Positions 49,338 to 63,580 of a stretch of DNA of 64,000 nucleotides are shown here, one piece after another. The translations under genes were made by a program, and so were the position numbers. The notes beneath the pieces were generated by a model. The model did no database searches. It was given only the letters and a program-made list of their open reading frames with translations, and was not told where the DNA came from. Position 1 is the stretch's first letter; the number at the start of each line of letters is the position of its first letter. The stretch is from Rhodospirillaceae bacterium (GTDB lineage Bacteria; Pseudomonadota; Alphaproteobacteria; GCA-2731375), in contig JABJKS010000012.1 of NCBI GenBank assembly GCA_018660265.1, forward strand, positions 62,001 through 126,000, in the 5' to 3' direction.

Positions 49338-50207
49338 ATGTACCGCGCATTAATATTTGTCGGCTTTGTTGCGCTTAACGTAGGCGCGGTTTGCGCCGGG
49401 GCAAACGCCGCATCGGTTTATGCTGCGTCAGCCACTGCAACCATTGACCTTGCCTCCATCGCGGAAGGATTGGTATTTCGCGGTGCCAGGATCAACTATG
49501 GGGCCAATGCCCAAGCGACGTCGGACGGGAGTACCCAGGTCGTCGACAAGCCTGGATCTACGACCACATTCGGTTCGTCTGATCCGCAATTTGAGAATTT
49601 GTTCCCGACCCCACCAAACATCAACTTTCAGACTGTTGATGCGTTCAGAGGCGGTGCCGAGGGCCATGGCCGCAACAGCTATAGTTCTTCAAGTAATATA
49701 ACGACTTTTGGGGCGGAAGCTTTTGGCCAGGCAACGGACCCGGTTGAATTCGCCTCGTCCAGAGTTCGCTGGGATGTCTTAATCGCGTTTGAAAACATCA
49801 CGACGGAGGCATTAGTCGCGTCATGGACGGTGGCCTATGTACTTGCAAATAGTGCCACCGCAGATCCGCGCGGCACCGCTTTCGCGAGTTCCCGTGTTCG
49901 GGTGCAACGCAGCACTTTCGTGGATGGCCACCGGGTGCCTGAAGATGGGTTTTTTGAAGCTGAAACGGCATCTTGCGGCGCCACAACTACCTGTGACCCG
50001 GGAACAAAGCCGGACGGCTCTTTTGTTTTTAATCTAAACCTTGCCGCCGGCGAGATCGGCTATCTCAACGTTGAAGTAGTGGCGGAGGGAAATGCTTCCG
50101 TGGTGCCGCTGCCAGCCGCAATGCCTCTCTTTGGCTCTGGCCTCGTGCTCATTGGCTGCATCGGCTGGCGTAGAAAACGTAAAGTCTTGGCACGTTTGGG
50201 CGATTAA
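49338..50207 (+). CDS. Secreted VPLPA-CTERM protein
   Basis: The 289-residue protein starts after an AGAGGT site. A signal peptide (residues ~1-24, ending ANA) is followed by a beta-rich Ser/Thr/Ala body with two Cys near residue ~215. The C-terminus has VPLPAAMPLF, a hydrophobic helix and WRRKRK, the exosortase sorting signal. No enzymatic motif is seen. A role as a surface or extracellular-matrix protein is inferred from the sorting tail. Confidence 0.8.
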   Translation: MYRALIFVGFVALNVGAVCAGANAASVYAASATATIDLASIAEGLVFRGARINYGANAQATSDGSTQVVDKPGSTTTFGSSDPQFENLFPTPPNINFQTVDAFRGGAEGHGRNSYSSSSNITTFGAEAFGQATDPVEFASSRVRWDVLIAFENITTEALVASWTVAYVLANSATADPRGTAFASSRVRVQRSTFVDGHRVPEDGFFEAETASCGATTTCDPGTKPDGSFVFNLNLAAGEIGYLNVEVVAEGNASVVPLPAAMPLFGSGLVLIGCIGWRRKRKVLARLGD

Positions 50208-61322: not shown

Positions 61323-62441
61323 TTAGGCCGCTACCGACTGCCGTGCCGCATCCTTCATGACGTCGGCAATCAGGGTATAGGTTGCTGCCCAGGCATCGTG
61401 AACTTCATCGGTAAAGGCCTCGCCCAAGCCCTGCTCCAGGGTCCAAAGCAGGGCCGCACCAACGGTATCATAGTGATGTTCCTCGACACCGTATTCCCGA
61501 TGCCGTTGACCCAGTATTTGAACCGCGGGCACAATGGCTTCCAACTTGGTCAGGCCATTGACCACGACTTTTAAGGTCGCCATCAATTTCTGTCCCTGCT
61601 CCGTGATGTCACCCTTAAACAGTGGCCGGACCGAGGGGTCGTGTTCAAACAGTCGATTGTAAAACAGCTCTGCCGCCGCATCGGCAATCGTCTCGACTAT
61701 GGCGAAGGTGGACTGCACCAATTCGATCTGATGCGCGCTCAATGGCGCGGCGTCTTGAGCGCCCGCATCTTGGGTCGTGATTGTATTTTCTTCCGCTGAT
61801 TGCTCAGCTACCGCGCTGCCATCAACGATGCTGACCAATTCCTCGCTCAGGTTTTGTACCCGCTGGGCCATAATTGCGACCATTTCACCGATCCGATCCG
61901 TCGCATCCCGGGTGCTGCCGGAAAGGGTTTTCACTTCCCCCGCAACAACCGCAAATCCGCGACCGACTTCACCCGCCCGGCTGGCTTCAATCGTGGCGTT
62001 AAGGGCCAGAAGATGTGTTTGCGCAGATATTTCATTGATGGACGTTGCCACCCTGCGAATATCTTCCATATCCACGTGCAACGCCTCAATCAGGGCTGAA
62101 ACAGGATCAATATTGCCTTCGGACTGCCCGATCAGTGCCGCCAGCTGTTTATACAGCTCTTGAATTTGCGTGGCAGTGGTGCCGACAACATCATTGATGC
62201 GATCTGTCGCTTCACGGGTACTGGCGGAAAGGTTTTTGACTTCCTGGGCAACGACTGCAAAGCCGTGACCGGCGTCGCCGGCTCTTGCGGCCTCTACATT
62301 GGCGTTCAAAGCCAGAAAATTTGTTTGCCCCGCAATGCCCTTGATAACGGTAGCGACCCCGTAAATCTTTTCAATGTCATCATCAAAAGGTTGCGCCAGC
62401 GATGTCATCCGCTCGATCGTTCCGTCCGCGAGACTGACCAA
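61323..62441 (-). CDS. Chemoreceptor-tip/globin fusion: two MCP signalling tips and a C-terminal globin
   Basis: The 372-residue protein contains two MCP hairpin-tip modules, residues ~32-72 ([21 protein letters not shown]) and ~132-172 ([20 protein letters not shown]), each ending in GFAVVA.EVK-L. A globin domain follows at ~235-372. Its Tyr261 (B10), Phe275 (CD1), Gln284 (E7) and proximal His314 match flavohaemoglobin/HemAT-type sensor globins. No membrane, HAMP or PAS segment is present. HemAT has the reverse order, globin first. The start is TTG 62441; ATG at 62408 is an alternative, and a frameshifted upstream extension is possible. A cytoplasmic O2- or NO-responsive signalling role is inferred. 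Confidence 0.83.
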
Positions 62442-62649
62442 TGTTACTACTCCAAAATCCCCAATTCGGATTTGAACGTAGTTGATACCAATTAAGGATT
62501 CCTAAAGGGGCGGTGGCACTCGGAGATGGCTTGACCTGAGTGCCCAAGGCCGTTTGCTGTGTCGGGCCGCCGCCTTGGCCGCCGCCTTGGTCGTCGTCCA
62601 GGATGTTCGCGATCTCGTGCGTTAGATCTGTGGGGGGAGTGTGACTCAA
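62442..62649 (-). other. Possible frameshifted N-terminus of the globin-receptor protein
   Basis: An open frame from TTG 62649 encodes MSHTPPTDLTHEIANILDDD and a Gly-rich stretch, then runs out of phase into the receptor gene. The receptor frame itself is open back to a stop near 62504, just beside the CCCCTTT run (plus-strand AAAGGGG at 62504-62510). One inserted or lost base there would join them. No other feature was seen in 62650-62767. Confidence 0.35.
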
Positions 62650-62821: not shown

Positions 62822-63580
62822 TCAGGCGACTTTTGACTTGCGCTTGCGATACCCAGCGAAGCCCAACCCAGCGATGGCCGTTGCGAATAGGGGCAAGGCT
62901 GCAGGAATGGGGACAACGGCTTGATCGGCTAGTATGCTAACGTTATCGATGCCAGCGTTTAAAAACGACTGGGTGTCTACCTCGCCGAGCCTAAAAATGA
63001 ATGTGCCGCCGCCGCCGACGAGGGCTGTTATGTCGGCTGTAATTGTGGAGAAGGCGTGAGGGTCGGCTCCAGCGTCCACACCGAGATAGAAGTTCGCTAG
63101 GCCGAGGGTTTGGAACACTGCATCGGTGGACGCCATGATATCCACACTAGCGTGCTGGTTGGGGCCGTTCGAGGTTCCGTCGGCTAGTCCGCCCGGTGCG
63201 AACAAGGGGCCGCCATCTGCGTCATTGACAAACAGATCGAAACTGAGGAGCACGCTCGTCGCCCCGGCAGCGACGGTAAAGCTCTGGGATAATTCATGGG
63301 CACCCGGCCCGCTTTGGTCGGTTACTGCGTAGAAGGATCCGTGTGCAGAGCCCCCCGCTGCTGAGGTGAGATGGCCGCTGGTTGGGGTGGTTGTGCCAGG
63401 TGTGTCAACGAAAACACCGCCACTGCCTGTATTGTTCACAGTCCAGCCTGTAAAGTCACCAGTTTCGAAGCCGCCATTAGAAATTAGCTCTACAATTGCG
63501 GCTTGGGCAGATAAAGAAGGTAACCCGAAGGCCGCGACGCCAAGAATAAAACCGAAGGTGACTGACTTGATATGTTGCAT
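62822..63580 (-). CDS. Secreted VPLPA-CTERM protein (choice-of-anchor-like)
   Basis: The 252-residue protein starts after an AGGAG site. A signal peptide (cleavage after AQA near residue 27) is followed by the NGGFETGDFTGWT motif common at the N-terminus of jelly-roll/carbohydrate-binding-like exosortase substrates. The C-terminus has VPIPAALPLF, a hydrophobic helix and YRKRK, the VPLPA-CTERM sorting signal. It is presumably exported and anchored or released at the surface. A strong terminator follows. Confidence 0.85.
   Translation of the reverse strand: MQHIKSVTFGFILGVAAFGLPSLSAQAAIVELISNGGFETGDFTGWTVNNTGSGGVFVDTPGTTTPTSGHLTSAAGGSAHGSFYAVTDQSGPGAHELSQSFTVAAGATSVLLSFDLFVNDADGGPLFAPGGLADGTSNGPNQHASVDIMASTDAVFQTLGLANFYLGVDAGADPHAFSTITADITALVGGGGTFIFRLGEVDTQSFLNAGIDNVSILADQAVVPIPAALPLFATAIAGLGFAGYRKRKSKVA

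Follow-up and report, generated by a model that had tools for sequence, protein, structure and literature searches.

The window, by which we mean the whole 64,000-nucleotide stretch of DNA that was analysed, carries on its minus strand a gene whose 372-aa product joins two minimal chemoreceptor (MCP) tips to a C-terminal F-family globin in one soluble chain. The probable role of this gene is to pass gas or redox status on to the cell's chemosensory array or to park a globin there.

A soluble protein with a conserved start site

The gene and its putative ribosome-binding site are located as follows:

61323..62441, minus strand: MCP tip-MCP tip-single-domain globin gene, 372 aa, TTG start (open reading frame and same-genus homolog)
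62450..62453, minus strand: GGAG Shine-Dalgarno-like site, 8 nt before the TTG (sequence; the homolog has GGGGGA in the same place)

The open reading frame is a real gene that encodes a soluble protein. A homolog from the same genus (genome G003, L013:1498-2595) is 69% identical to it across residues 2-371; its TTG start lies at the equivalent site, preceded by GGGGGA, and an in-frame stop is found shortly before it. Since the domain order and the TTG start are the same in both, we reject the reading of the 372-aa protein as the end of a longer receptor, and the gene boundaries set by an earlier note on this sequence are correct; the concern raised in that note, that homologs might prove to be tails of normal long receptors, was dispelled by the homologs themselves. 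A frameshift or missing N-terminus, represented by an out-of-frame upstream ORF (62649-62383), was likewise discarded on account of the in-frame stop, the shared TTG and the DNA upstream of the homolog, which is an unrelated AMP-binding enzyme gene. Neither a transmembrane stretch (maximum 19-residue hydropathy of 1.47) nor a Pfam match to HAMP or to a classical receptor sensor domain was found in the protein.

Comparison with the G003 homolog places the gene under purifying selection. The globin has a dN of 0.148 and a dN/dS of about 0.05, and the tips have dN values of 0.20-0.27 with saturated dS, whereas the linker reaches a dN of 0.72, against 0.15-0.27 in the domains, and carries an indel.

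An FNR-like palindrome, TTGATACCAATTAA (one mismatch), lies at 62482-62495, 41-54 bp upstream of the gene start, and the G003 homolog retains half of it only. We dropped FNR-type boxes as evidence because 8 were found window-wide against 6.2 expected by chance and because they are absent from most other globin genes. Elsewhere in the window, the proteins encoded at 62822-63580 and 49338-50207 are both secreted and carry VPLPA/PEP-CTERM-like sorting signals at the C-terminus.

Two MCP tips in tandem

The N-terminal part of the protein comprises the following elements:

62166..62393, minus strand: MCP tip module 1, residues 17-92 (tip profile, 104 bits; Pfam MCPsignal)
61857..62090, minus strand: MCP tip module 2, residues 118-195 (tip profile, 112 bits; Pfam MCPsignal)
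61767..62441, minus strand: predicted single-chain four-helix bundle, residues 1-225, with helices 4-53, 57-104, 112-155 and 161-220 (AlphaFold2)

Pfam MCPsignal matched the protein in two stretches (E 1e-47, 162.6 bits, cut-off 34.6), one on each tip. The earlier note had described a duplicated tip, with copies 100 residues apart, and this was borne out: the QT motif begins at residues 39 and 141, a spacing of 102, and the two tips are identical at 43 of 80 positions without gaps. The protein thus holds two MCP signalling hairpins in tandem within one soluble chain. Both are the hairpin end of MCPsignal only, the best stretch covering profile positions 26-109 of 172, with helix arms of about 45-60 residues each in the AlphaFold2 model. 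The MCP signalling domain is not complete and lacks its methylation helices, so that no adaptation would be expected. Missing long arms, HAMP and membrane segments had also been reported in the note, as had solubility, all in agreement with our results. The tips do carry the CheA/CheW contact residues: across the 13 tips of the lineage that comprises fusions and free tips, the Tsr-equivalent positions Q374, T375, L380, N381, E385, G390, F396, V398 and E402 are invariant, and R388 is conserved in 12.

The tip of an MCP dimer is normally a four-helix bundle contributed by two chains. When residues 1-225 were modelled in AlphaFold2 with MCP relatives in the alignment, all of which fell on tip 2, the four helices were predicted to form one bundle (pLDDT 81.7, pTM 0.77); in the full-length model, built with globin relatives only, the tips appeared as two straight helices of low confidence. 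Fold searches with the bundle returned single-chain four-helix bundles, mostly designed ones, which are expected for any helical bundle and back the predicted topology only. The model suggests that one chain could provide both hairpins and make a natural covalent receptor-tip dimer; a domain-swapped dimer of residues 1-225, compatible with the monomer prediction, may form instead.

An F-family globin on a flexible linker

The C-terminal part consists of a linker and a globin:

61743..61826, minus strand: flexible acidic linker, residues 206-233 (low pLDDT, fast evolution)
61341..61739, minus strand: F-family single-domain globin, residues 235-367, with Y261 (B10), F275 (CD1), Q282 (E7), K285 (E10) and H314 (F8) (Pfam, conservation, model)

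The domain matched Pfam Globin PF00042 (E 3e-17, 63.6 bits, cut-off 22) and stayed under the cut-off of the HemAT-type Protoglobin family PF11563 (13.6 bits, cut-off 25), which groups it with the flavohemoglobins and single-domain globins; for the three globin lineages we follow the scheme of PMC1457004. In line with what the note had read from the sequence, the B10 Tyr, CD1 Phe, E7 Gln and proximal His that together with the PF00042 match mark an F-family single-domain globin are all present. Among 78 related globins, Y261, F275 and H314 are kept in every one, Q282 in 74 and K285 in 66. A globin fold, whose absence from a structure prediction had been put forward as a reason to give up the globin reading, is predicted with a pLDDT of about 83-96 across most of the domain, and the model superposes on Hell's Gate globin I (HGbI) with a TM score of 0.94 (to the target) and an rmsd of 1.0 Å. 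The best solved relatives by sequence are HGbRL (98 bits, the closest), HGbI and Vitreoscilla haemoglobin. HGbRL changes conformation strongly upon ligand binding, and its Lys E10 binds the heme in the closed form (PMC4476040).

The 28-aa linker is predicted to be disordered, with a pLDDT below 50 at residues 208-230. Its disorder and fast evolution make a rigid mechanical signal from globin to tips unlikely.

Repeated fusion of globins to MCP tips

We searched 385 genomes of the class, the window's order (15 genomes) and 398 genomes of the phylum with the globin alone as query, and then sought a tip in the same ORF. Most matches were stand-alone globins. The class genomes and the window's order yielded ten short fusions of tip and globin, all of them alphaproteobacterial, host classes here and below having been judged from the sequences and from named relatives. 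Their domain orders are:

tip-tip-globin: the window and G003
tip-globin: G013, G058, G126 and G099
tip-globin-globin: G197 (562 aa)
globin-tip: G129, G206 and G298 (frame of G298 shortened near the contig end)

Seven fusions, spanning every order other than tip-tip-globin, were confirmed with Pfam. Two of the 11 sampled genomes of the window's genus carry a fusion, as do eight more outside it, and no fusion was among the matches listed in the plasmid searches. A domain-architecture search for MCP-MCP-globin proteins had been proposed in the note, and the G003 protein is a second case. The same note had presented the protein as a globin-coupled receptor with the HemAT order reversed. The arrangement it described stands, with the tips first and the globin last in the chain, but the protein is not a rearranged HemAT: the globin is of the F and not the S family, and domain order is free across the wider family; as both tip-globin and globin-tip proteins occur, the reversal has no special meaning.

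An F-family globin also stands at the N-terminus of full-MCP receptors of 790-950 aa in G635, G683 and G699, three genomes from a single gammaproteobacterial family; Pfam, run on one of these receptors, gave the order globin, PAS repeats, HAMP and MCP.

L156:3911-6712, L157:3849-6629 and L158:1434-3803: gammaproteobacterial globin-PAS-HAMP-MCP receptors

Tips also occur on their own. Free tip proteins of about 105-125 aa were found across the class, in G054, G049, G283, G188, G359, G223, G269, G312 and G106.

L202:2927-3292, L204:2786-3154, L205:2669-3001, L206:3086-3442, L207:2853-3221, L208:2707-3075 and L209:2746-3084: free-standing MCP tip proteins from several alphaproteobacterial families, with neither a sensor domain nor an adjacent globin

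In the tip tree (77 columns, weak inside), a supported branch (96/91) has the fusion and free tips on one side and the gammaproteobacterial tips plus 36 ordinary MCP ones on the other. Together with the free tips, this split indicates that the module is a separate mini-tip lineage and not a recent cut from the receptors of its own genome. In the globin tree, which is weakly resolved, the fusions do not form one clade and several changes are needed; the G129 globin-tip protein has as its sister the stand-alone globin of the adjacent gene (100/98). Fusion of a tip with a globin likely happened repeatedly, in at least three events, because a single simple fusion cannot have produced both orders and the tips of the gammaproteobacterial receptors fall within the ordinary MCP set. 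The linkers of the fusions are disordered and variable.

Two further short tips were noted. One is a free mini-tip ORF (L104:2905-3270) at the end of the viral-classed contig IMGVR_UViG_3300045950_000290, either a phage gene or host flank; the other belongs to a 246-aa protein of the window's own genome (L012:1138-1875) that pairs a PilJ-type N-terminus with a short MCP tip, another combination of sensor and mini-tip.

A conserved operon was ruled out, as neighbours differ between fusion loci, and no chemotaxis gene adjoins the fusion in the window or in G003. The fusion is directly followed by a HisKA sensor gene in G013, by a PAS sensor gene in G058 and by a stand-alone protoglobin gene (PF11563; L086:3973-4467) in G126. 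Among the stand-alone F-family globin genes, one in G054 (L022:1516-1920) follows a long MCP gene at a distance of 180 bp, and another (L021:1012-1923) is flanked by genes read from sequence as those of an ABC transporter ATPase and a NirB-like protein, a position that suggests a link to nitrate/nitrite use.

Chemotaxis genes in the host genomes

A che cluster in the window's genome encodes a 927-aa CheA, which has CheW-like domains, and a CheW; CheY, CheB and CheR of this cluster were read from their sequences. CheA and CheW are present in the fusion hosts G000, G013, G099, G197, G129 and G206, and neither was detected in G003, G058 and G126, whose assemblies are 94-98% complete. These three genomes carry other, full MCPs, which also need CheA, and missing contigs are therefore a fair explanation; the fusion may nonetheless have a CheA-independent role. 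Given the kept kinase-contact residues and the che cluster in the protein's own genome, the simplest reading, and judged from these sequences a plausible one, is that the protein docks on CheA/CheW.

Proposed mechanism and alternatives

Our best explanation, which we hold tentatively and at somewhat less than an even chance, is a soluble, adaptation-free accessory chemosensory protein whose covalent tip dimer docks on the array and whose tethered heme globin modulates this engagement. The two minimal hairpins of one chain would fold into a covalent receptor-tip dimer and dock on CheA/CheW or among receptor tips, while the flexibly tethered globin would sense O2, NO or redox state and alter the engagement of the tips with the array, possibly through ligand-dependent association or steric effects; the flexible linker would also allow simple tethering. 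Docking, heme binding and ligand-dependent output are what we infer from the domains with their landmarks, the contact residues, the che cluster of the same genome, the repeated fusions and the predicted bundle. The full-length PAS-HAMP-MCP receptors of gammaproteobacteria that carry a globin of this family, the G054 globin gene downstream of an MCP gene and the ligand-driven movement of HGbRL, whose Lys E10 has its counterpart in K285, would also fit such a sensor. Against it stand the disordered linker, the lack of adaptation, the three hosts with no detected CheA/CheW and the absence of an adjacent chemotaxis gene in the window and in G003.

The variable, disordered linkers, the free domain order with tandem globins in one member and the separate occurrence of stand-alone globins and free tips would suit a tether, in which the tip bundle is an address tag that parks the globin at the array for NO scavenging or O2 buffering near redox- or heme-based receptors, and the state of the globin does not control the tip. 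We consider this rather unlikely, given that the duplicated tips keep kinase-contact residues beyond what a tag needs and that no reductase partner for NO dioxygenase turnover is known. The tips are also short and devoid of methylation helices, and minimal Tsr signalling fragments of similar size are reportedly known from the work of Ames and Parkinson, which would favour a constitutive competitor that titrates CheW/CheA or spoils receptor trimers irrespective of the globin. Such a decoy is improbable in view of the strong purifying selection on the globin, its intact heme pocket and the repeated fusion specifically with F-family globins.

A role of the tips outside CheA/CheW, for instance as a bundle through which a neighbouring sensor kinase or receiver dimerises or docks, would account for the three hosts with no detected CheA/CheW and for the sensor genes behind the fusions of G013 and G058. 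We give it little probability: neighbours are not conserved between fusions, six hosts do have CheA/CheW, and the other three carry full MCPs and may simply lack che genes as drafts. Lastly, the patchy distribution within the genus and the TTG start could betray a chance or decayed gene, a former-receptor fragment beside a globin, but the architecture kept at 69% identity, the low dN against saturated dS and the eight further fusion-bearing genomes outside the genus make this very improbable.

Relation to known systems and significance

Like the HemAT-type globin-coupled sensors, the 372-aa protein combines a heme globin and an MCP signalling sequence in one soluble chain; unlike them, it has a C-terminal F-family globin and two short tips in place of an N-terminal S-family (protoglobin-like) globin and a full, C-terminal MCP signalling domain. 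HGbRL of Methylacidiphilum (PDB 3wfw/3wfx; PMC4476040) is also an F-type globin without helix D, with Tyr B10, Gln E7 and Lys E10, fused to a signalling domain, but its globin is N-terminal and its partner a C-terminal Roadblock/LC7 domain. Soluble single-chain MCP-like proteins of the Rhodospirillum centenum type share the two tandem MCP signalling domains and, as described, are set apart by having no reported globin, whereas the tips in the window are short and of the mini-tip lineage. Cc_4972 of Corallococcus coralloides, cytoplasmic and described from sequence only, likewise joins a globin to MCPsignal, but through a Bac_globin (truncated-haemoglobin family), a PAS and an MCP domain (PMC6194562). 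The stand-alone F-family Vitreoscilla haemoglobin and HGbI resemble the globin domain and have no signalling domain attached. A literature search, with subscription journals mostly outside it and hence a weak negative, returned no paper in which short MCP tips are fused to an F-family globin.

We regard the 372-aa protein as a globin-linked chemosensory variant with a plausible candidate mechanism. A broader idea, offered with more reserve, is that proteins joining F-family globins to free mini-tips make up an undescribed, recurrent class of gas sensors that serve chemosensing without adaptation, in which the protein of the window would be a natural covalent tip dimer that regulates CheA directly. 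If the proposed link is true, gas-linked chemosensing would involve a second globin lineage, distinct from that of HemAT, and the repeated fusions would be evidence of a working connection between globins and chemosensory arrays. Two further leads are a family of free MCP tips and a natural single-chain tip dimer; the latter would offer a ready minimal reagent for asking which piece of a chemoreceptor suffices for CheA control.
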